A DNA stretch of 13,175 nt, taken from Nocardioides sp. (GTDB taxonomy: Bacteria; Actinomycetota; Actinomycetes; Propionibacteriales; Nocardioidaceae). The DNA is taken from NCBI GenBank assembly GCA_003519585.1, contig DOWL01000138.1, positions 8,985 to 22,159 of the forward strand. Reading direction: 5' to 3'. The first letter of the stretch is position 1. The number at the start of each line of letters is the position of its first letter. Both the position numbers and the translations under genes were made by a program. A model generated the notes under the pieces. That model was not told where the DNA came from and did not search any database. It was given only the letters and a program-made list of their open reading frames with translations. Positions 260 to 10,835 of this stretch are shown piece by piece.

Positions 260-1315
260 TCAGCGGCCGTAGACCGATACCTCGGTGGCCTTGACGGAGA
301 AGGTGACGCGGAGCCCGGGAGCCAACTCGAGTTCGGCGGCGGCTTGCACGGTCACGTCGGCGTGCAGAGATCCCGCGTGCACCCGGATGGATTCGGCCAT
401 CGGCTCCACCTCGGTCACGGTCACGTCGAAGGTGTTGCGGGGGCTGCCCTCGACCCGGTTGCGATAGACGGCCACGGCACCGGGCCGGAATGTCGCGATC
501 GCCTCCGCGCCCTCGACGGGCGTGTCGCCCTCGGCGTGACCTTGGACGCGCACTCCGTCGGCCGTCTCGACCGCGCCCGCGCGCCACGTGCCGGTGACCA
601 GGTTGAGGCCGGCCAAGCGGGCCGCGAACGGCCTCCGTGGCCGCGTCAGGACGTGGTTGCTGGCGCCTTCCTCGACGACTCGTCCCTGTGACAGAACCAC
701 GACGCGGTCGGCCATCAGGAGCGCGTCGAGGGGATCGTGGGTGACGATGATGGCGGTCTGGTCGGCCAGGACCCGGCGGAGGGTCTGGCGCAGGGCCGGG
801 AGCACGGCGACGTCGAGGGCCGCCATCGGCTCGTCGAGGAGCAGCAACGCGGGCTCGGTCGCCAGCGCTCGCGCGACGGCGACGCGCTGCGCCTGCCCAC
901 CGGACAGCTGGGCGGGGCGACGTTCGGCCAGCTCTCCCACACCGACCTCCTCGAGCCAGCGGTGAGCGCTCTCCCGCGCAGCGGCCTTCCTGATGCCTCG
1001 GCTTCGTGGTCCGAAGGCGACGTTCTCAAGAACGCTCAGGTGCGGGAAGAGCAGCGGCTCCTGGCCCAACAGCGCCGTACGGCGGGCGTGCGGCGGGACG
1101 CTGACCGAGAGGCCCGACGGCGCTGCATCCGTGAGCGTCTCGCCGTCCAGGACCACCCGGCCTCGGTCGGGCACCAGCAGTCCGGCAGCGACGGCAAGTG
1201 CGGTCGACTTGCCGGAACCGTTGGGGCCGAGCAGTGCCAGCGTCTCGCCGGAGGCGACAGCCAAGGCGACATCGACATCGCGGTTCCGCACCGCGCACGA
1301 CAGCTGGAAGCTCAT
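260..1315 (-). CDS. modC: Molybdate ABC transporter ATP-binding protein ModC
   Basis: This is the ATPase that powers molybdate (and usually tungstate) import through ModB. The 351-residue protein has all ABC landmarks: Walker [10 protein letters not shown] at 30-38, Q-loop Gln85, signature LSGGQAQR at 137-144, Walker B LLLLDEP at 157-163 and the switch His193 in VTHDP. Residues from about 290 to the end fit a TOBE/Mop-type oxyanion-binding domain ([16 protein letters not shown] onward), as expected for ModC rather than a generic ABC ATPase. The ATG overlaps the modB stop by 4 bp (ATGA), so the two are very likely translationally coupled. It is the last gene of modABC, with only a possible gene remnant downstream. 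Confidence 0.95.
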
Positions 1316-2082
1316 AGTGCGCTCCGACTCTGGCGCGCCAGCCCGATCACCAGCACGGCCACGACCACCAGGACCAGAGCGAGCGCGACGGCGGCGTCCG
1401 GGTCGGTCTCCCGTTGCAGGTAGATCTCGAGCGGAAGGGTGCGGGTCCGGCCTTGCAGGCTCCCCGCGAAGGTGATGGTCGCTCCGAACTCACCCAACGA
1501 ACGAGCGAAGGCGAGCACCGCGCCGGACATCAATCCGGGGAGGACGAGCGGCAGGGTGATCCGGCGGAACACCGTGGTGGGCCCCGCGCCCAACGACGCG
1601 GCCACGACCTCGTACCGCTGCCCAGCTGTCCGTAGTGCGCCTTCGAGGGACACGACCAGGAAAGGCAATGCGACGAAGGTCTGCGCCATCACCACGGCCA
1701 CGGTCGTGAACGCGATCTGGATGCCCAGCGCGTCGAGCTCCGAGCCCAGCAACCCGCGCCGGCCGAAGGTGTAGAGCAGTGCCAGCCCGCCCACGACCGG
1801 TGGCAACACCAGTGGCAGGAGGACCAGCGATCGCAGCACGCCCAGGCCCGGAAAGTCGCGTCGTGCCAGCACCAGCGCGAGTGGCACCCCGAACACGACA
1901 CACAGACCGGTGCTGGCTGCCGAGGTCTTCAGGCTCAACCAGAACGCCGCACGCGAACTCTCCGAGGTGATCAGCGTGCCGAAGTTGGGCCAATCGACCC
2001 GAGCCACGATCGCCAGCAGGGGGAGGAGCACGAAGCCCGCCCCGAGGACGGCCGGCACGTAGATCCAACGCGGCAGCCCCAC
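1312..2082 (-). CDS. modB: Molybdate ABC transporter permease ModB
   Basis: This is the inner-membrane channel subunit for molybdate uptake. From the GTG at 2082 it is 256 residues, beginning [17 protein letters not shown] and closely resembling mycobacterial ModB proteins, which also start just before a PRW-Y-PA segment. Several hydrophobic helices are visible ([39 protein letters not shown]). The EAA-type cytoplasmic loop that contacts ModC is [15 protein letters not shown], followed by [12 protein letters not shown] longer frame reaches an ATG at 2205, but its first 30 or so residues would lie inside the end of modA and are Ser/Arg-rich without family likeness, so I chose GTG, with GGAG 11 nt upstream. 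It lies 37 bp after modA and overlaps modC by 4 bp. Confidence 0.92.
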
Positions 2083-2119
2083 CTGAGGTGGTGCTCCGCG
2101 AGCGCCGCGCCCGCGGTCG

Positions 2120-2899
2120 TCAGGGCTTGCCGAAGCCTGCTTCTTCCAGGATCGACTGGCCCTGGTCGCCGAGGACGAAGTCGATGAAGTCCTGCGCCAG
2201 GTCACTGTTCTCCGAGTCCTTCAACGCGACGATCGGGTAGGTGTTGACCACCTGGTCGGACTCGGGGAAGGGTACGCCCTCGACCGCGTCGCCTGCCGCC
2301 GTCACGTCGGTCACGTAGACGACGCCGGCGTCGGCCTCCCCCGAGGTCACCTTGCCGAGCACATCGGTGACCGACTGCTCCTCACTGACCGGGCTGATGG
2401 TGACGCCCGTCGCCGCTTCCATCTTCTCGGTCGCGGCACCGCATGGCACCTCGGGAGCGCACACGACGACCTTGAGGTCGGGGTTCGCCAAGTCCGCGAA
2501 CGACGTCACACCGGCCGGGTTGCCGGGCGGTGTCGCAATCTCGAGCGTGTTCGTCGCGAAGTCCTGCGGCTCCCCGTCCTGGAGATCGTCGGCGGTGACC
2601 TTGTCCATGTTCGCTGTGTCTGCCGAGGCGAACACGTCGGCCGGCGCACCTTCCTGGATCTGCGAGACCAGGTCGGAAGAGCCGCCGAAGCTGAACTCGA
2701 CCTTCACGCCATCGTGATCGGCCTCGAAGTCCTTGCCCATCTCGGTGAACGTGGAGGTCAGTGACGCTGCCGCGAACACGGTCAGGGTCGTGTCACCTCC
2801 GCCGTCCCCGTCCGAATTGCCCGAATCGCCGCAGGCCACGAACGCCGCCGCACTCAAAGTCAGCGCGACGAAGAGCCGCACTCCGCCGGTCATTCCCAT
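2120..2899 (-). CDS. modA: Molybdate-binding lipoprotein ModA
   Basis: This is the extracytoplasmic solute-binding protein that captures molybdate and passes it to ModB/ModC. The 259-residue product begins with a signal peptide ([17 protein letters not shown]) ending in a lipobox-like AFVAC, so it is probably a lipid-anchored protein, followed by a Gly/Asp/Ser-rich linker. The mature part opens with [17 protein letters not shown], the typical ModA N-terminus; [14 protein letters not shown] and [11 protein letters not shown] segments are also family hallmarks. The ATG at 2899 is chosen; an ATG at 2893 is equally possible, and neither has a clear Shine-Dalgarno sequence. A TTG at 2929 would run through the upstream palindrome and is rejected. 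It is the first gene of modABC. Confidence 0.94.
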
Positions 2900-2920
2900 G
2901 ACGTCGATACAATCACAATA

Positions 2921-2937
2921 CCTATGCAATGCCTAGG
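2921..2937 (-). promoter_or_regulatory. Candidate operator upstream of modA
   Basis: On the minus strand the 17 bases read CCTAGGCATTGCATAGG, an inverted repeat of two 8-base arms around one central base with one mismatch per arm. It ends directly before TATTGT, a possible -10 element about 20 bases above the modA ATG. The palindrome would therefore fill the spacer of a promoter, a common position for a repressor site. The -35 hexamer would be weak. The regulator is not in the window; a ModE-like or TOBE-domain molybdate sensor would be a natural guess. Confidence 0.4.
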
Positions 2938-4040: not shown

Positions 4041-4148
4041 TCAGTTCGCCGGGTCCTCGGCCTCGCAGCAGTCGTAGCCGGGAAGTCGGCAGGGCTTCGC
4101 CGGTCGACGCGAGCAGACCTCGCCGCCCGCGGGAGACACGGCGCTCAT
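4041..4148 (-). CDS. Cysteine-rich 35-residue peptide coupled to the MFS gene
   Basis: A short frame encodes MSAVSPAGGEVC, then Cys20 in KPCRLPGY, then a vicinal pair Cys27-Cys28 (GYDCCEAEDPAN, C-terminus). Its ATG overlaps the stop of the MFS gene as ATGA, the arrangement seen at modB/modC, which argues for coupled translation. About 30 of 35 codons end in G or C, matching the neighbours. The product is soluble, with the spacing CX7CX6CC. I do not recognise a family. Four cysteines in a peptide encoded beside arsenic genes suggest thiol binding of As(III), perhaps as a chaperone or sink for the adjacent permease; this is inference. It could also be a chance frame, but the overlap and the cysteine content make that less likely. 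Confidence 0.55.
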   Translation of the reverse strand: MSAVSPAGGEVCSRRPAKPCRLPGYDCCEAEDPAN

Positions 4149-5389
4149 CGCGGGCCGTTCGGGGCGGGCACCGGCTCCGCGGCGGGGTCGTGTGGACGGA
4201 CGAGGGCGGTCGCGCCGAGACAGCCGAGGGCCAGAACGACGAACGCGGCGGCGTATCCACCAACTGCGGACGCGAGGAGGGTCCCGACCCACGGGGCGAA
4301 GGCGGCTGCGGCCATGACCGCGCCGGAAAGGATGCCGTTGCGCGCCCCGAAATCATGGGTTCCCCAGCGGTCACTGACCGCGGTGGCCTGGATGAGGGTG
4401 AAGATGCCGCGGGCCGTCCCCGCTGCGAAGGACAGGGCGCAGACGACGAGCACCGGTTGGTGGACGACCGCCAACGCCAGCGTCGTGAGGCTGGCCGCCC
4501 CCAAGGTGCCCACCGTACGGACCCGGGCGGAGTACCGGATGAGGACCGGCCTGTAGAACAGCCGGCCGACCACCTGGCCGGCGCCCCCGATGCCGAGTGC
4601 CACCGCGGCTTCGGTGGTGGTGAGCCCGTGCTGGATAAGCAGCGGGACGAGGTTCACCACGACGGCGTACACGCAGAACCCGCCGAGCGTCATCGCCGCC
4701 ACGAGCAGCACGAACTCCGGCTGGTGTACGACGCGGCGCCGCGCGGGGTCGTGGAGCACGGACCCGGCGAGGTGGCCGGTGAGCGGCGTCCAGGAAGCGG
4801 CGAGCCCGAGCCAATGGAGCGGGATGGTGCCGACAAGCACCACCGCCAGGCAGACGTACGTCGTGCGCCAACTCACGTGGTCGACCAGTACCGCGGTGAT
4901 CGGCGCGAAGACAGTGGAGGCCAGTCCCGCGACGAGTGTGACCGCGGTGAGCGCCTTGACCCACTGGTCGCCGGCCCAGCCGGTAACGGCTGCGAACGCC
5001 GGTGCGTAGAGGGTGCCGGACATGGCCACCCCGGCGAGGAGCCAGGCCAGCAGGAAGCTGGGGAGATTGGGCGCGGCAGCGATGAGCACGACCGCGACGA
5101 CGCCGAGGCAGGACCCAGCCGTCATCACCGAGCGGGGGCCGTGGGAGTCGATGCGCCGGCCGACCCACAGCCCGGCGGCCGCCGCGACCAACTGGGCGGC
5201 AGTGAAGCAGGCCACCAGCCACGTCAGCGACCAGTCCTCGGTGTCGCGAATCGTGGTGCTGAGGACCGGGAACGCGTAGAAGAGGATGCCCCAGGAGATG
5301 ATCTCGGTCGCGCACAGGACAGCGACGACCCCGCGCAGCTGTCCGGCGGGGAGGCCGGGGGGCGTCGTCCGCGCGATGTCGGACGTCAC
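4145..5389 (-). CDS. MFS efflux permease of the arsenic operon
   Basis: This is a 414-residue Major Facilitator Superfamily transporter with about 12 hydrophobic segments. A motif-A-like loop GRRIDSHGPR lies at 77-86, and the second half begins after the central charged region HDPARRRVVHQPEF. The GTG at 5389 lies 22 bp after the flavoprotein stop, with a purine-rich GGTGG just before it; a longer frame to 5515 would run into the flavoprotein gene and is Ser/Ala/Arg-rich without family likeness. A GTG at 5407 is an alternative. Placement between the ArsO-like gene and the cysteine-rich peptide suggests that it exports an arsenic-containing or acetylated/oxidised product. It does not look like ArsB or Acr3. 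The specific substrate is unknown. Confidence 0.88.
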   Translation of the reverse strand: MTSDIARTTPPGLPAGQLRGVVAVLCATEIISWGILFYAFPVLSTTIRDTEDWSLTWLVACFTAAQLVAAAAGLWVGRRIDSHGPRSVMTAGSCLGVVAVVLIAAAPNLPSFLLAWLLAGVAMSGTLYAPAFAAVTGWAGDQWVKALTAVTLVAGLASTVFAPITAVLVDHVSWRTTYVCLAVVLVGTIPLHWLGLAASWTPLTGHLAGSVLHDPARRRVVHQPEFVLLVAAMTLGGFCVYAVVVNLVPLLIQHGLTTTEAAVALGIGGAGQVVGRLFYRPVLIRYSARVRTVGTLGAASLTTLALAVVHQPVLVVCALSFAAGTARGIFTLIQATAVSDRWGTHDFGARNGILSGAVMAAAAFAPWVGTLLASAVGGYAAAFVVLALGCLGATALVRPHDPAAEPVPAPNGPR

Positions 5390-5411: not shown

Positions 5412-6749
5412 CTAGCCGCGCGCTGTTCCGAGCCCGCCGATGCTGATGAGTTCCGGCGTCGGCGCGCAGCATCCGCCGCTCTCGACGGTGTCGTCGAAGA
5501 CCCCGGACCCACCACAGACCCCAGTCTCGGGGAGGACCAGTTCGACCCGGTCGGCGGCCGCGTGGTCCCCGGCGATCGCGGCCACGACCGACCGCGCCTG
5601 CTCGCAGCCGGTCAGGGTCAGGAACGACGGCGCGCGGCCATAGGACTTCATGCCCACGAGGTAGAAGCCCGGCTCCGGCTGCGCGAGCACCTTCGCGCCG
5701 TGCGGCTCGACGCTCCCGCACGAGTGGACATTGGGGTCGATCATCGGCGCTAGCTCGCGCGGGGCCTGGAGCACTGGGTCGAGGTCGAGGCGAATCTCGC
5801 TGAGGTGGTCGAGGTCGGGCCGGAACCCGGTCACGGCGATGATCTCGTCGACGTCGGCCACGACCTGCCCGTCGAACGCGGACACCGACAGGCGACCGTC
5901 GGGCTGCGCCTCGACCGACGCCGCCCGGAAGGAGGCGATCGGGGTGACGGTGCTGCTGGCTGCGGCTTCCTCGGCGGACCTGCCCAGCGCGCCACGCGCC
6001 TGGAGTTGGTCGTTGTCGCCACCGCCGAACGCGTTGCTCGCGCTGGGTCGCCGGAGCAGCCAACTGACCCGGGTGCCGGGGGCCGTCTCTGCGAGCTTCG
6101 CCAACTCGATCAGCGTGTTCTGCGCCGAGGCACCCGTGCCGGCGACGACCACGTGCTTGCCGGCGTACCGAGCCCGGCCCTCGTTGCTGCGCAGATCGGG
6201 GATCCGGTAGCTGATCCGATCGGCGTACTCGGTCTCCCCGAGCGCCGGGAGGCCGTCACCGCCGAGCGGGTTCGGACCACCCCAGGTGCCCGAGGCGTCG
6301 ATGACGGCGGCAGCGGTGACCCGGACCAGCCCCTCGGGCGTCTGGACCTGCAGGACGAGCGGCTCGGTGTCTCGGCCCGCGTCGACCAGGCGGTCGCGGC
6401 CTGCGCGGGCCACGCCGATCACACGGTGCAGGTAGCGGACGTCGACCTCGGGCGTCGCCTGGAGTGCATCGGCCAGAGGCTGGAGGTACGCGTCGACCCA
6501 CTCGTCGCCAGTGGGATAGCGGGTGGCTGCCGGCGAGTCCCACCCGGCTCGATCGAGCAGTTCGGTGGCCGCGCCGTCGGTCAACTCGGACCACGGCGAG
6601 AAGAGTCGGACGTGACCCCATTGGCGGATCGCGGAACCAGCCACCGGCCCAGCCTCGAGGACGATCGTGGCCAACCCTCGAGCCTGGGCGTGGGCTGCCG
6701 CGGCCAGGCCGATGGGTCCGGCACCGATGATCGCGACGGGGTGGTTCAT
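5412..6749 (-). CDS. ArsO-like FAD/NAD(P)-binding flavoprotein with a cysteine-rich tail
   Basis: This 445-residue flavoprotein has an N-terminal FAD fold (VAIIGAGPIGLAAAA, 6-20), a second dinucleotide fold for NAD(P)H (VVVAGTGASAQNT, 200-212) and the IIAVTGFRPD motif (303-312) of flavin monooxygenase/disulfide-reductase relatives. Flavoproteins of this sort accompany arsR in actinobacterial ars clusters (often called ArsO), but the reaction is not firmly known. It lacks the CxxC or CxxxxC redox motif of thioredoxin reductases. Cysteines sit at 344, 382, 412 and as a pair at 427-428 (ESGGCCAPTPE) in the C-terminal tail, which could bind As(III). The ATG at 6749 has AAGGAG five bases upstream (6760-6755), so an ATG-like extension to 6785 is rejected. 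It is the first gene of the leftward operon, divergent from the ArsR-GNAT gene. Confidence 0.88.
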   Translation of the reverse strand: MNHPVAIIGAGPIGLAAAAHAQARGLATIVLEAGPVAGSAIRQWGHVRLFSPWSELTDGAATELLDRAGWDSPAATRYPTGDEWVDAYLQPLADALQATPEVDVRYLHRVIGVARAGRDRLVDAGRDTEPLVLQVQTPEGLVRVTAAAVIDASGTWGGPNPLGGDGLPALGETEYADRISYRIPDLRSNEGRARYAGKHVVVAGTGASAQNTLIELAKLAETAPGTRVSWLLRRPSASNAFGGGDNDQLQARGALGRSAEEAAASSTVTPIASFRAASVEAQPDGRLSVSAFDGQVVADVDEIIAVTGFRPDLDHLSEIRLDLDPVLQAPRELAPMIDPNVHSCGSVEPHGAKVLAQPEPGFYLVGMKSYGRAPSFLTLTGCEQARSVVAAIAGDHAAADRVELVLPETGVCGGSGVFDDTVESGGCCAPTPELISIGGLGTARG

Positions 6750-6762
6750 GCCTACTCCTTGC

Positions 6763-6778
6763 ATCGATGAACGTCGAT
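6763..6778. promoter_or_regulatory. ArsR operator copy 1 (ATCGA-N6-TCGAT)
   Basis: ATCGATGAACGTCGAT: perfect 5-base inverted arms around six bases. It sits two bases above the AAGGAG ribosome binding site of the ArsO-like gene and a few bases into its predicted transcript, where a bound repressor would block early elongation. Confidence 0.6.
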
Positions 6779-6793
6779 ATGTCACGTGATCGG

Positions 6794-6822
6794 ACTATAT
6801 CGATACGCGTCGATGAATGCAA
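6794..6822 (-). promoter_or_regulatory. Promoter of the leftward ArsO-like operon
   Basis: Read on the minus strand, TTGCAT (6822-6817) is followed by a 17-base spacer and TATAGT (6799-6794), a good sigma-70-type promoter. The expected start near 6787 gives a leader of about 38 bases with an AAGGAG site. Operator copy 2 lies within the spacer, touching the -10 element, so repressor and polymerase should exclude each other. Confidence 0.6.
6799..6814. promoter_or_regulatory. ArsR operator copy 2 (ATCGA-N6-TCGAT)
   Basis: ATCGATACGCGTCGAT repeats the same inverted arms; its first base is shared with the -10 of the leftward promoter. Its centre lies 36 bp from copy 1 and 26 bp from copy 3. Confidence 0.62.
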
Positions 6823-6824
6823 TC

Positions 6825-6840
6825 ATCGATGCAGATCGAT
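6825..6840. promoter_or_regulatory. ArsR operator copy 3 (ATCGA-N6-TCGAT)
   Basis: ATCGATGCAGATCGAT has the same arms and overlaps the first base of the TATGAT -10 box of the ArsR-GNAT gene, placing autorepression directly at that promoter. Flanking bases CATCGATG and CGATATG are also shared with copy 1. Confidence 0.62.
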
Positions 6841-6851
6841 ATGATCTTTCC
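6840..6851 (+). promoter_or_regulatory. -10 box for a leaderless ArsR-GNAT transcript
   Basis: TATGAT (6840-6845) is followed by six bases and the ATG at 6852, so transcription should begin at or next to the start codon. No Shine-Dalgarno sequence precedes the ATG, which fits leaderless translation, common in actinobacteria. The matching -35 (6817-6822 on this strand, ATGCAA) is poor. Confidence 0.45.
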
Positions 6852-7742
6852 ATGACGGCCTCTGCGATGGACCGCATCACCCGCCCCGACAACCTCGAGC
6901 TCCTCGGCGACGACGTTGCGGCGACGTACGCCGAGTGGTTCGGCACCATCGCCGACCCCACGCGGCTGAGACTCCTGCACGCCGTAGCCTCGTCCGCCTC
7001 GGGCGCCCTGACGGTCGGCGACCTCGCCGAGCGGTTGGGGATCTCGCAATCGACCTGCTCTCACCACGTGCGCAAGCTGTCCGAGGTGGGGTTCCTGGTC
7101 GTAGACCGGGTGGGTCGCGCGAGCGTCGTGTCGGTCAACCAGGCGTGCTGCACCGGTCTGCCGCACGCGGCTGACGTCGTGATGGGCACGATGGTGACGA
7201 GTCCGTGCTGCCCGACGGACTGGCCGGCATCGGTCACGACGCGCGCCATGGCGGACGACGATCTACCGATCGTCAGGGAGATCTACGCGCAGGGCATCGC
7301 GACTCGCAACGCCACGTTCGAGACCGAGGTCCCCGGCGTGGCGCAGCTGGGGGCCTCCTGGCTGCCCGACCACCGCTGGGTGGCTCAGGTCGACGGACGG
7401 GTCGTCGGGTGGGCCGCGGCGACCCGGGTCTCTGACCGCGCCTGCTACGCGGGAGTGGCTGAGACCTCGGTGTACGTCGCCGACGGTGTTCGCGGGCAAG
7501 GCATCGGCAAGGCCCTGCTGTACCGGCAGGTCACCGAGGCCGACGCCGGCGGTCTCTGGACCCTCCAGACCTCGATCTTCCCCGAGAACCGCGCCAGTAT
7601 CGCGCTTCACCACTCGGCCGGTTACCGCACTCTCGCGGTCCGCAGCCGCATCGCGCAACTGGACGGCGTCTGGCGCGACACCGTCCTCCTCGAGCGCCGG
7701 AGGGACGACGACGGACAGGGCGAGGACTGCGGCCCCTGCTGA
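6852..7742 (+). CDS. ArsR repressor fused to a PAT/ArsN-type GNAT acetyltransferase
   Basis: One 296-residue polypeptide joins two domains. Residues about 18-125 form an ArsR/SmtB winged helix: ADPTRLRLLHAVA, then the HTH LTVGDLAERLGISQSTCSHHVRKL, then the wing. Residues about 128-285 form a GNAT of the phosphinothricin acetyltransferase family: VTTRAMADDDLPIVREIY, NATFETE, ETSVYVADGVRGQGIGKAL (acetyl-CoA loop at 214-219) and NRASIALHHSAGY. ArsN1 enzymes of this family acetylate the arsenical antibiotic arsinothricin. Classical ELCVCDL is absent; candidate As(III) ligands are Cys69 in the recognition region, Cys99-Cys100 and Cys119-Cys120. The protein ends EDCGPC, another thiol pair. The ATG at 6852 is chosen because the frame upstream runs through the promoter and operators. 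Divergent from the ArsO-like operon, it probably represses both. Confidence 0.88.
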   Translation: MTASAMDRITRPDNLELLGDDVAATYAEWFGTIADPTRLRLLHAVASSASGALTVGDLAERLGISQSTCSHHVRKLSEVGFLVVDRVGRASVVSVNQACCTGLPHAADVVMGTMVTSPCCPTDWPASVTTRAMADDDLPIVREIYAQGIATRNATFETEVPGVAQLGASWLPDHRWVAQVDGRVVGWAAATRVSDRACYAGVAETSVYVADGVRGQGIGKALLYRQVTEADAGGLWTLQTSIFPENRASIALHHSAGYRTLAVRSRIAQLDGVWRDTVLLERRRDDDGQGEDCGPC

Positions 7743-7754
7743 GCAGCGCTCAGC
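7738..7754. terminator. Hairpin across convergent stop codons
   Basis: GCTGAG, five bases (CAGCG), then CTCAGC make a perfect 6-bp stem. It overlaps the TGA of the ArsR-GNAT gene and the TGA of the convergent arsC, only 7 bp apart. It could stop transcription from both sides, but no T-run is visible. Confidence 0.3.
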
Positions 7755-8427
7755 GGAGAGCGTCCGCCCGCTCGACCGGCAGGCCCAGCTTGTCCTCGAG
7801 CAGGTGGATGACTCGTCGCTCGATCTCGTCGCGGATGGGTCGCACGGCAGCAAGGTCCTGCCCCGCCGGGTCATCGAGCTCCCAGTCCTCGTACCGCTTG
7901 CCGGGGAAGATCGGGCAGGCGTCGCCGCAGCCCATCGTGATGACCGCGTCAGCGGCTCGCACGACCTCGTCGGTCCAGGGCTTGGGGTATTCGCCGCTGA
8001 TGTCGATGCCACGTTCGGCCATGGCCGCGATCGCCGACGGGTTGATCTGCGAGGCGGGTTCGGAGCCTCCCGACCAGGCGACCGCTCGACCGGCGGCGTG
8101 GTGCTCGAAGAAGCCGAGGGCCATCTGGGAACGCCCGGCGTTGTGGACACACAGGAACAACACGATGGGCTTACCGTCGCGCGCCTTGCCCTCGACGCGG
8201 GCCAGCGCCTCGAGCCGCTGACGTGCGAATCGCTCGGCGAGCAGGGGCAGGAAGTTCGCCACCGTCGAGGACTCGCCGAACTCGTCGTAGGAGGTGTGCA
8301 GGAAGCGTTCGACGGTCTCGCTGCCGAAGATGCCGTCGTACTCCTGCGCGAGGCGGGTGGCCGAACGTCGCAGCGCTAGCTGCTGGTCGAGTGAAATGTC
8401 GCTGCGCTTGTACAGGTCGTCGAGCAT
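7750..8427 (-). CDS. arsC: Arsenate reductase with N-terminal helical domain
   Basis: This enzyme reduces arsenate to arsenite in the cytoplasm. Residues about 1-80 form a helical domain (LALRRSATRLAQEYDGIFG, then SSTVANFLPLLAERFARQR), as in actinobacterial ArsC proteins with a three-helix bundle. Residues 86-215 form the low-molecular-weight phosphatase fold, with the nucleophile loop CVHNAGRS (Cys93, Arg99), the MGCGDACPIFPG segment (Cys167, Cys171) and the acid loop DWELDDPAG. Cys167/Cys171 correspond roughly to the resolving-cysteine region of thioredoxin-coupled ArsC; mycothiol coupling is also possible in actinobacteria. The ATG at 8427 has AGGAG six bases upstream (8438-8434). It lies 20 bp after the ArsR-phosphatase fusion and is surely co-transcribed with it. 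Convergent with the ArsR-GNAT gene. Confidence 0.93.
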   Translation of the reverse strand: MLDDLYKRSDISLDQQLALRRSATRLAQEYDGIFGSETVERFLHTSYDEFGESSTVANFLPLLAERFARQRLEALARVEGKARDGKPIVLFLCVHNAGRSQMALGFFEHHAAGRAVAWSGGSEPASQINPSAIAAMAERGIDISGEYPKPWTDEVVRAADAVITMGCGDACPIFPGKRYEDWELDDPAGQDLAAVRPIRDEIERRVIHLLEDKLGLPVERADALR

Positions 8428-8447: not shown

Positions 8448-9128
8448 TCACGAAGCCTCGGACAGGCGCTCGGCCAGCCCGTGGACGCGGGAGTCGAGGT
8501 CGCGGAGTACGCCCTCGAAGGCAGAGACGGTGCCGAGTGGCACCGGGTCGGGCACCGACCAATGCAGCGCGGCAGGGCTGGCCAACTCCTCGTAGGCGCG
8601 GTCACAGACGGTGACGACGAGGTCGCCCGACCTGAGCACCTCGTCGAGGTGCTGGGGCCGGGTGGTCTTGGCCAGCCGCAGGCGGTGACGGCGGGCCGCC
8701 GCGACCGCGCCGGCGTCGACGGCGTCAGCGGGATGCGTTCCCGCGGAGGCGACCGGCAGGTCGGACATCGCGGCCCAGAGCAGGGCAGCCAGCTGTGACC
8801 GAGCGGTGTTGGCGGTGCACACGAATAGCACCCGCTGGGGTGCGGCCAGCGACGTACCGGCCACCACGGGCAGCCCTTCGCTCACCAACTGCACGTAGGT
8901 CCGGCGTCGGTCACCCTCCGAACGCTGCCGCTGAATCAGCCCGGCTGACTCCAGCACCTTGAGGTGGTGGGCCAGGAGGTTGCTGCCGATCCCCAAGTCG
9001 TGAGCGAGTTGCGAGGGGAGCGCGTCACTGAGCGCGAGTCGCTCGACGATCGCCAGCCGCGCCGGCTCGCCCAGTGCGGCAAAGGCCCCTGCTCGCCGTT
9101 CCCGATCAGCAATTAAATCAGCATTCAT
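8448..9128 (-). CDS. ArsR repressor fused to an ArsC-type (LMW phosphatase) domain
   Basis: A 226-residue fusion. Residues about 10-85 are an ArsR winged helix (FAALGEPARLAIVERLAL, QLAHDLGIGSNLLAHHLKVLE, then a basic wing RQRSEGDRRRTY). Residues about 97-225 are a low-molecular-weight phosphatase/arsenate reductase fold with the active loop CTANTARS (Cys104, Arg110) and the acid loop VPDP (194-195). The DNA-binding half contains no cysteine at all; the only cysteines are Cys104 and Cys175, so the usual ArsR As(III) site is missing and sensing, if any, must use the catalytic domain. It is the first gene of the leftward unit with arsC 20 bp behind, and divergent from the aquaporin, whose shared promoter region it probably controls. 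The ATG at 9128 lacks a clear ribosome binding site. Confidence 0.9.
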   Translation of the reverse strand: MNADLIADRERRAGAFAALGEPARLAIVERLALSDALPSQLAHDLGIGSNLLAHHLKVLESAGLIQRQRSEGDRRRTYVQLVSEGLPVVAGTSLAAPQRVLFVCTANTARSQLAALLWAAMSDLPVASAGTHPADAVDAGAVAAARRHRLRLAKTTRPQHLDEVLRSGDLVVTVCDRAYEELASPAALHWSVPDPVPLGTVSAFEGVLRDLDSRVHGLAERLSEAS

Positions 9129-9138
9129 TGAGGCAAGT

Positions 9139-9168
9139 TTGACTGAGGCATCTCAGTGCCGTCAAGAT
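9139..9168 (+). promoter_or_regulatory. Promoter of the aquaporin gene, leaderless
   Basis: TTGACT (9139-9144), an 18-base spacer, and CAAGAT (9163-9168) are followed by six bases and the GTG at 9175, again implying transcription starting at the start codon. On the other strand TTGACG (9165-9160) is a possible -35 for the divergent ArsR-ArsC gene, with only a weak -10 after it. Confidence 0.45.
9142..9157. promoter_or_regulatory. Candidate operator between arsR-arsC and aquaporin
   Basis: ACTGAGGCATCTCAGT is a perfect inverted repeat: ACTGAG, four bases, CTCAGT. It overlaps the end of the aquaporin -35 and lies in its spacer, and it would also lie in the spacer of a divergent promoter for the ArsR-ArsC fusion. 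TGAGGCA also occurs once more as a direct repeat 15 bases upstream (9129-9135). Its sequence differs from the ATCGA-N6-TCGAT sites of the other unit. Confidence 0.5.
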
Positions 9169-9174
9169 GCCGCC

Positions 9175-9891
9175 GTGACTCCACATCTCACGCGACGCCT
9201 GCTGGCCGAGTTCCTCGGGACTGCACTCCTGGTCACCGTCGTGGTCGGCTCCGGCATCGCGGCCGAGCAGCTGTCGCCCGGCGATGTCGGCATCCAGCTG
9301 TTCGAGAACTCGACAGCGACCGTGTTCGGGCTCGCCGCGCTGATCCTGCTCTTCGGCCCGGTCTCGGGCGCGCATTTCAACCCGGTGGTCTCACTCGCCG
9401 ACTGGTTCCTGGGCCGTCGGGCGGGGCGCGGTCTGACTCTCTCGCACGTGGCGGCATACGCCGTAGCCCAGCTCGCTGGCGGAGTCTGCGGCGCGCTGCT
9501 CGCGAACGAGATGTTCGACATCGACGCCGGGCTCTCCACCAAGGACCGCGTCTCAGAAGGACACCTTGTCGCCGAGATCGTCGCCACCGCAGTGCTGATC
9601 GCACTGATCTTCGCACTGGCCCGCACGGGACGAGGCGCCATCGCTGCACCGGCCGTCGGCGCTTACATCGGCGCGGCGTACTGGTTCACCAGTTCCACCT
9701 CCTTCGCCAACCCGGCCGTCACGGTCGGCCGGATGTTCTCCGACACCTTCGCGGGGATCGCGCCCGCGTCGGTGCCGCCGTTCATCGCGATGCAGCTGGT
9801 CGGCCTGATGGTCGGTGTCGTCGTGACCTCAGTGCTCTACCCGGACGCCGGTGAGCACGCCGACGACGTCGTCCTACCCCACTCGAACTGA
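9175..9891 (+). CDS. Aquaglyceroporin (MIP family), probable arsenite exit channel
   Basis: This 238-residue channel protein has six hydrophobic helices and the two half-helix motifs of the aquaporin family: HFNPVVSLADW (Asn69-Pro-Val, unusual NPV in place of NPA) and FANPAVTVGR (Asn179-Pro-Ala, with Arg186 as the selectivity-filter arginine). Undissociated arsenite passes through aquaglyceroporins, and a channel paired with ArsC in place of ArsB is known from AqpS of Sinorhizobium: arsenate is reduced inside and arsenite flows out down its gradient. The divergent arsR-arsC unit supports that job here. The GTG at 9175 is chosen because it matches the -10 spacing and the usual short N-terminus; a TTG at 9139 would run through the operator. 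Confidence 0.9.
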   Translation: MTPHLTRRLLAEFLGTALLVTVVVGSGIAAEQLSPGDVGIQLFENSTATVFGLAALILLFGPVSGAHFNPVVSLADWFLGRRAGRGLTLSHVAAYAVAQLAGGVCGALLANEMFDIDAGLSTKDRVSEGHLVAEIVATAVLIALIFALARTGRGAIAAPAVGAYIGAAYWFTSSTSFANPAVTVGRMFSDTFAGIAPASVPPFIAMQLVGLMVGVVVTSVLYPDAGEHADDVVLPHSN

Positions 9892-10667: not shown

Positions 10668-10763
10668 GACGAACAGTCGCGGGAACCAGCCCATGGTGAC
10701 GACGACGTGGGGGCCACGGAGGAAGAACAGCGTTTCCGCAGGTCACAGCGGATGTTCGGGAAG

Positions 10764-10835
10764 CGCCCCCGGTAGGATTCGAACCTACGCTCCCGCCTCC
10801 GGAGGGCGGTGCTCTATCCCCTGAGCTACGGGGGC
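10764..10835 (-). tRNA. tRNA-Arg (anticodon CCG)
   Basis: Read on the minus strand the 72 bases fold into a full cloverleaf: acceptor GCCCCCG with CGGGGGC (7 bp), D arm GCTC/GAGC with loop AGGGGATA, anticodon stem CCGCC/GGCGG around CTCCGGA (anticodon CCG, reading the arginine codon CGG), a 4-base variable loop GAGC, and T arm GTAGG-TTCGAAT-CCTAC. The discriminator is G and CCA is not encoded, as is usual in actinobacteria. It is divergent from argS, the gene for the synthetase that charges it. Confidence 0.95.

Follow-up and report, generated by a model that had tools for sequence, protein, structure and literature searches.

An ArsR-acetyltransferase fusion in actinobacteria, a candidate self-regulating resistance enzyme against arsinothricin-type compounds

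Introduction

Why should an arsenic sensor and an acetyltransferase be made as one protein? The question is raised by a gene of Nocardioides sp., found in a window of 13,175 bases (contig DOWL01000138.1; the window is the whole stretch of DNA analysed), in which a winged-helix ArsR domain is followed by a GNAT domain resembling phosphinothricin acetyltransferase (PAT) and ArsN1. A preliminary description had taken the gene, along with a flavoprotein, an MFS pump and a cysteine-rich peptide placed under its control, for a dedicated module against arsinothricin-like compounds, rather than for plain arsenite resistance. According to the accessible text of PMC6465285, PpArsN1 of Pseudomonas putida KT2440 (PDB 5JTF, 5WPH, 6M7G) is an arsinothricin N-acetyltransferase, and the spread of arsN1 is predicted there to reflect a wide occurrence of producers. 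The available text of PMC12159101, a review on actinomycetes, names arsinothricin only from Burkholderia; in that of PMC8552651, ArsL orthologues are described as spread more widely, in an unclear role.

The fusion gene and its distribution

Both domains reside in one polypeptide, with neither stop nor frameshift, as had been described (Table 1). The fusion scores over the curated cut-off for ArsR/SmtB metalloregulators, its GNAT half matches Pfam Acetyltransf_1 with 45.7 bits (gathering threshold 20.7; hmmscan), and the acetyl-CoA loop previously read in it is real. Relatives are encoded at 216 places in the GTDB contigs, and the best 80 of the 216 were fetched, a sample which leans to close kin. 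A single frame runs through both domains in 81 of 81 loci (the 80 fetched plus the window), which makes it very unlikely that the fusion arose by chance or from a frameshift artefact. The CGPC motif at the C-terminus is unconserved across the 81 loci. Confidence in the predicted structure is low to moderate (mean pLDDT 66.2, below 50 at residues 100-123 and in much of 240-270), and nothing is therefore concluded on the arrangement of the domains.

Table 1. Features of the fusion gene and its surroundings (positions in the window)
Feature	Position	Strand	Evidence
MFS transporter, ArsK-like below cut-off	4145..5389	-	NF033733 141.5 bits vs 400
Divergent FAD/NAD(P) flavoprotein, weakly ArsO-like, conserved Cys tail	5412..6749	-	Pyr_redox_3 60.1 bits
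Putative operator copy 1, ATCGA-N6-TCGAT, adjoining flavoprotein start	6763..6778		exact copy
Putative operator copy 2	6799..6814		exact copy
Putative operator copy 3, 11 bases 5' of fusion ATG	6825..6840		exact copy
ArsR-GNAT fusion gene	6852..7742	+	ATG 6852 to stop 7742, one uninterrupted 296-aa frame
ArsR winged-helix domain, residues 27-99	6930..7148	+	NF033788 HTH_metalloreg 61.7 bits, curated cut-off 55 (hmmscan)
Cysteine pair C99-C100, candidate As(III) site	7146..7151	+	each residue in 81/81 loci
Cysteine pair C119-C120, interdomain linker	7206..7211	+	C119 81/81, C120 80/81 loci
GNAT (PAT/ArsN1-like) acetyltransferase domain, residues 131-282	7242..7697	+	profile scores, tree
Acetyl-CoA loop RGQGIG, residues 214-219	7491..7508	+	R214, G215, G217, G219 invariant (49-row alignment)
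ArsC-like protein, three-helix dimerization domain	7750-8427	-	NF046112 57.3 bits, cut-off 25
ArsR + low-molecular-weight phosphatase-type ArsC, second sensor-enzyme fusion	8448-9128	-	profile matches
MIP channel, divergent from ArsR-ArsC gene	9139-9891	+	profile match

The architecture is no rarity. A protein search with the whole fusion returned 5152 matches at E<=0.001 among 7997 scored; each of the 120 matches listed covers at least 88% of the query, and the nearest named sequences are from Nocardioides. Within Pseudonocardiaceae, 220 of 390 genomes match the fusion at E<=1e-80, a stop lying inside the match in some of the rows listed. The plasmid collection contains 42 records that match at least 80% of the query in one place. 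Of these, 40 are listed: 10 are split pairs, and 30 look fused (28 from Rhodococcus, one each from Nocardia and Pseudonocardia), of which the four inspected proved to be single frames. As many as 27 of the 30 fused-looking proteins are named only metalloregulator, and database names show that annotation pipelines have already met the ArsR-GNAT architecture. The ArsR half alone, used as query, retrieved no more than 78 short proteins (69-197 aa; six have names marked as partial) against the 5152 whole-protein matches, and this type of ArsR seems therefore to exist mostly in fused form. Comparison of the ArsR half with PDB chains gave five listed alignments which all stop before C99, leaving the candidate cysteine site outside.

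Operators and neighbouring genes

Three exact copies of a palindrome, ATCGA-N6-TCGAT, are found between the fusion and the flavoprotein gene. A site with one mismatch (6789-6804) overlaps the second copy, and no operator other than these four was detected in the whole window at up to one mismatch. The motif is conserved among loci. In 77 of 81 loci, ATCGA-N4-8-TCGAT is present in the interval from -180 to +45 relative to the start of the fusion, against 0.04 loci expected from mononucleotide shuffles. With the N6 spacer, 166 copies fall within this interval, in 77 loci, and 9 elsewhere in the same loci; in a control, the N6 form was found in 6 of 5375 stretches of 225 bases taken from these loci. 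Control of the flavoprotein and MFS genes by the fusion, as earlier proposed, is well compatible with putative operators suitably placed in the divergent promoter region. Scanning of positions 6700-7800 for sigma-70 promoters and terminators gave nothing. The ArsC, ArsR-ArsC and MIP channel genes have no operator copy nearby, and given the lack of further operators in the window they are probably outside the regulon of the fusion.

The start of the flavoprotein gene at 6749 is deduced from an upstream AGGAG (the open frame listed reaches 6785), and that of the MFS gene at 5389 is similarly deduced (the open frame listed reaches 5515). The flavoprotein scores 54.4 bits with the ArsO model (NF040505), which it misses, the cut-off being 425; lying so far below, it is perhaps a member of an unnamed enzyme family. 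Residues C356, C424 and C440 are present in 74 of 74 rows, C439 in 71 of 74, and this tail with vicinal cysteines may hold trivalent arsenic. In our view, what the preliminary description called cysteine-rich corresponds to these conserved cysteines; a separate gene for a peptide of this sort is missing among the window frames of at least 60 aa. Homologues of the partner genes reside near the fusion in different proportions: the flavoprotein in 74, the MFS protein in 44, an ArsC-like protein in 57 and an aquaporin in 10 of 80 loci, several of which are shortened by contig ends. The flavoprotein-MFS-fusion unit is also found on plasmids pROB01, pREL1 and pPaSha1, whose incomplete gene tables list neither ArsC nor Acr3 up to 8-9 kb away from the unit. 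Elsewhere in the window, ABC transporter genes (260-2929, minus strand) resemble in their translations a molybdate modABC set, and a tRNA-Arg gene is located at 10763-10835 (minus strand).

The acetyltransferase half

The GNAT half is of the PAT/ArsN1 kind, as described, but it falls outside each of the curated families. ArsN1 family A (NF040503) is the best NCBIfam model, and is missed with 139.6 bits against a cut-off of 170; the scores are 69.1 against 210 for ArsN1 family B and 49.4 against 300 for phosphinothricin acetyltransferase (NF040502), both likewise missed. Membership in curated ArsN1 family A is accordingly rejected. The cut-off of 170 is missed as well by other fusion GNATs (L067, 136.1 bits; L167, 147.1 bits), and by the GNATs found in ArsL clusters of two Pantoea and one Klebsiella plasmids (142.4, 144.8, 150.5 bits). 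To judge from the scores, such a miss decides membership in the curated family, and leaves function undecided.

All sampled fusions form one clade, both in a tree of 68 rows (28 fusions, support 100/99) and in one of 79 rows (33 fusions, 100/100). In the latter a clade of 44 rows (100/100) includes the 33 fusions, the three enterobacterial ArsL-cluster GNATs and eight solo GNATs, among which those of Hymenobacter, Arthrobacter and Streptomyces all reside in ars loci. The expected kinship to assayed enzymes holds in part. The fusion-containing clade is on the ArsN1 family A side of the tree, yet separate, and the joint group (100/99) includes other GNATs too. PpArsN1 is on the opposite side, together with the GNAT of a Pseudomonas amygdali ArsL cluster (98/92); also opposite to the fusions is Bar, on a long branch. 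The ArsL-cluster GNATs of Priestia and Alicyclobacillus, named ArsN1 family A in RefSeq, make a third group, on the ArsN1 family A side. As these three sets are placed apart, ArsL clusters draw on three or more GNAT lineages, with one of which the fusion groups.

Adjacent arsR and GNAT genes occur on Arthrobacter and Streptomyces plasmids. Direct descent of the fusion from such pairs is not adopted: the paired ArsR carries a cysteine pair at its N-terminus and is devoid of the C-terminal ones, and these GNATs group only weakly with the fusions (82/71), both of which argue against it.

Substrate residues, compared by using the PpArsN1 ligand positions given in the accessible text of PMC6465285, bear out the earlier assignment only in part. 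F33, R77, Y80 and Y89 of PpArsN1 are kept in the window as F156, R196, Y199 and Y208, and an acid is retained at catalytic D85, which is E204 in the window (E as in PAT). In turn, 7 of the 12 ligand positions listed differ (I31A, R75S, A76D, V86T, G122S, A124F, V158T). A31, S75 and F124 are each common to 6 of the 7 ArsL-cluster GNATs compared; for this reason the pocket differences would count little against arsinothricin as substrate, yet they are no proof for it.

Link to ArsL clusters

ArsL is rare among carriers of the fusion. Only one of the 78 distinct genomes behind the 80 fusion loci has an ArsL above cut-off, and in a sample of the phylum ArsL was above cut-off in 0 of 296 genomes, weaker relatives being present in 18. 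In Pseudonocardiaceae, ArsL is above cut-off in 7 of 390 genomes. In all six above-cut-off loci uncut by contig ends, some 6-7 kb separate the fusion from arsL. These six clusters share the order ArsP_1-ArsL-FemAB-ArsM-ArsR-ATP-grasp plus the one place in the genome that matches the fusion at E<=1e-40, and a GTP-binding protein is encoded in all five in which it was looked for (L167-L171). In the same five, ArsR and ATP-grasp are separate overlapping frames, and the stop-to-stop frame of the fusion opens at most 40 bases from the end of the ATP-grasp frame, where an operator copy is found. The sixth cluster is that of Amycolatopsis anabasis (L155/L156, G339:C129), in which ArsR and ATP-grasp are encoded in one frame. 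In the seventh genome (G584), ArsL is 2.5 kb from a contig end and the cluster is split; ArsM-ArsR-fusion-aquaporin reside on a 9.2-kb contig which ends at ArsM, with no ATP-grasp match.

The operator precedes arsL in 7 of 7 above-cut-off Pseudonocardiaceae loci; six have it in the interval from arsP to arsL, and the G584 locus is without an ArsP match. It was found before arsL in 0 of the 2 sub-cut-off loci (441 bits), as first fetched. Nine Pseudonocardiaceae genomes have ArsL at E<=1e-110, and the fusion is present at some place in each of them, compared with 220 of 390 genomes in the family. One sub-cut-off genome (G448) has no fusion near ArsL; in the other (G373) the fusion is some 15 kb off, with its own flavoprotein and MFS genes, and the operator is present only at the fusion. 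The L167-L171 clusters are near-copies (ArsL 95-98% identical), and the link to producers rests on about two lineages, L167-L171 plus G584 being one, A. anabasis another.

The fusions of L167-L171 and G584 (L177), linked to ArsL, differ from the others in the sensor: C100 is replaced and the C119-C120 pair is gone, so that sensing must be different there. The same loci carry a separate ArsR gene. The A. anabasis fusion retains both cysteine pairs. While sensor cysteines have been lost, the letters of the GNAT pocket have not in L167-L171; the G584 copy seems, from the alignment, to lack the R196 equivalent.

As to the product, the cluster ArsL carries an RCCVKC tail, and the FemAB-like protein of A. 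anabasis has CC near its end. The A. anabasis permease matches Pfam ArsP_1 (157.1 bits), and no NCBIfam model over cut-off. The A. anabasis ArsM misses the cut-offs of its models, with 242 bits against 263 for arsenite methyltransferase, and 110.4 against 500 and 62.7 against 240 for the arsinothricin ArsM models. Because the arsinothricin-specific cut-offs are missed, the product of this cluster may be other than arsinothricin itself, and the ATP-grasp ligase and FemAB-like protein of the actinobacterial clusters suggest a peptide.

Sixteen records of the plasmid collection have ArsL at E<=1e-60. Seven of the 16 were opened (two Pantoea, one Klebsiella, two Priestia, Alicyclobacillus and P. 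amygdali), and all seven clusters hold a GNAT or a named ArsN1. The enterobacterial ones (L135, L149 and L150, two Pantoea and one Klebsiella plasmid) are organized as ArsL-ATP-grasp-MFS-ArsM-GTP-binding-aquaporin, with the GNAT on the opposite strand. The Pantoea plasmid whose GNAT is 47.4% identical to the fusion GNAT half has an ArsL of 639.9 bits (cut-off 450) and an ArsM of 338.1 bits (cut-off 240). Enterobacterial plasmid relatives of the GNAT occur mostly without ArsL: among Klebsiella plasmid records, 1050 have a match to the GNAT half at E<=1e-5 (with 28-47% identity among those listed), and only one has ArsL at E<=1e-60.

Proposed role and alternatives

The relatives of the fusion sit in clusters seemingly built for an arsenic antibiotic, and the fusion is for this reason probably an antibiotic-resistance device rather than a component of ordinary arsenic resistance. 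We favour, with moderate confidence, the view that it is an enzyme which controls its own gene and protects against arsinothricin or a closely related amino-arsenical; gene context is what argues for a substrate of this type, and the link of the fusion clade to ArsL clusters supports the dedicated role earlier proposed. According to this view, the fusion would be a dimer whose ArsR half occupies the three operators, and represses both its own gene and the divergent flavoprotein-MFS operon. Trivalent arsenic, either inorganic or in the form of reduced antibiotic, would bind the C99-C100 and C119-C120 pairs and release the fusion from DNA, and the derepressed fusion would then act as resistance enzyme. 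The flavoprotein would probably re-oxidise the trivalent arsenical, and the MFS protein would be an arsenical exporter. Arsinothricin is proposed, in the accessible text of PMC8552651, to be formed in the trivalent state and oxidised afterwards; reduced arsinothricin itself could be both the inducer and the substrate of the flavoprotein. Dimer, DNA binding, ligand, acetylation substrate, oxidation and export are points which we infer, the sensor and enzyme steps because known families behave in this manner (ArsR/SmtB; ArsN1, in the available text of PMC6465285). A broader scenario is tentative, and slightly more open to doubt than to belief: the fusion would be the standard device of actinobacteria against an arsinothricin-type, probably peptide-linked antibiotic made by some Pseudonocardiaceae, whose clusters carry the fusion and its operator; the linker cysteines would couple sensing to the enzyme, and the sensor would decay where the cluster has its own ArsR.

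The same device might act on another substrate, as phosphinothricin, methionine sulfoximine, hydroxyarsinothricin or an arsenic-containing peptide. Among solved structures, the nearest in both sequence and fold is a PAT of P. syringae (PSPTO_3321), determined with L-phosphinothricin, and the divergence of the pocket from PpArsN1, D85E included, as well as the peptide product hinted at by the ATP-grasp and FemAB-like proteins, fit in with this possibility. The context, however, is one of arsenic and not of phosphonate (ArsR, ArsC, ArsP_1, ArsM, ArsL), and the PAT model is missed by far, and we regard a different substrate as rather unlikely. Plain resistance to arsenite, arsenate or antimonite, the ArsR half being the regulator and the GNAT half a regulatory (self- or protein-acetylating), accessory or relic domain, is a good deal less probable. 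In its favour, ordinary arsenate-resistance genes (ArsC, ArsR-ArsC, MIP channel) adjoin the fusion in the window, 77 of the 78 carrier genomes tested lack an ArsL above cut-off, and arsN along with arsC or arsD confers arsenate resistance according to the text available of a review (PMC12607644). Against it speak the catalytic positions and the acetyl-CoA loop of the GNAT half, which are nearly invariant, and the clusters L167-L171, where it is the sensor that has lost its cysteines and not the pocket its letters. Least credible, and very improbable, is the formation of two overlapping in-frame products, the full-length protein and a GNAT started internally at M111 or M114. At the border of the domains, Met 111 does not vary in the 49-row alignment; by eye, no clear ribosome site is found upstream, and the few short proteins retrieved with the ArsR half speak against it. 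A toxin-antitoxin reading (HTH proteins paired with GNATs, as in the accessible part of PMC2701414) is rejected because of the arsenic context.

Relation to known systems

PpArsN1 and the fusion share the GNAT fold, the ars context, F33, R77, Y80, Y89 and the acid at 85. All 50 Foldseek matches listed for the predicted structure of the fusion are GNATs, and PpArsN1 ranks 28 among them (TM by target 0.70). Unlike the fusion, PpArsN1 is a stand-alone protein without sensor, found on the other side of the tree, and seven of its twelve ligand positions differ. Closer are the GNATs of the enterobacterial ArsL/ArsM clusters, which belong to the same 44-row clade and have the letters of the fusion at PpArsN1 positions 31, 33, 75, 77, 80, 85, 89 and 124; they differ in being stand-alone, encoded on the strand opposite to the cluster, and adjoining an aquaporin gene. 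ArsR-M of Brevundimonas sp. M20 is, in the available text of PMC10190100, a single polypeptide which binds its own promoter and modifies arsenic, as proposed for the fusion, but its enzyme is a methyltransferase and not a GNAT, the substrate is As(III), and the gene resides within a met operon.

Fused arsenic-resistance proteins described in the accessible parts of PMC6205960 and PMC6514093 are ArsR-ArsC (of which the window has one), arsN-arsC and arsN-arsD; an ArsR-ArsN fusion is not named in these accounts. Already in print, as far as the available texts go, are stand-alone ArsN1 and fusions of ArsR with ArsC, of arsN with arsC or arsD, and of ArsR with a methyltransferase. In the accessible passages of the open-access texts found for the fusion or for arsinothricin there is no description of an ArsR-GNAT fusion or of its link to ArsL clusters, the sole ArsR-ArsN text match appearing to be the gene order arsH-arsR-arsN-arsB-arsC.

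If the proposed role is true, many actinobacterial genomes (in Pseudonocardiaceae, 220 of 390) have resistance to an arsenic antibiotic built in, hidden by names such as metalloregulator and GNAT protein. The linked Pseudonocardiaceae clusters would denote actinomycete producers of an arsinothricin-type compound, and the prediction on arsN1 spread and producers, as worded in the accessible text of PMC6465285, would become testable. In their own right, L155/L156 and L167-L171 are candidate arsenic natural-product clusters, and the ArsR/ATP-grasp frame of A. anabasis (L156, 3652-5268, plus strand, 539 codons) is possibly a further ArsR-enzyme fusion.
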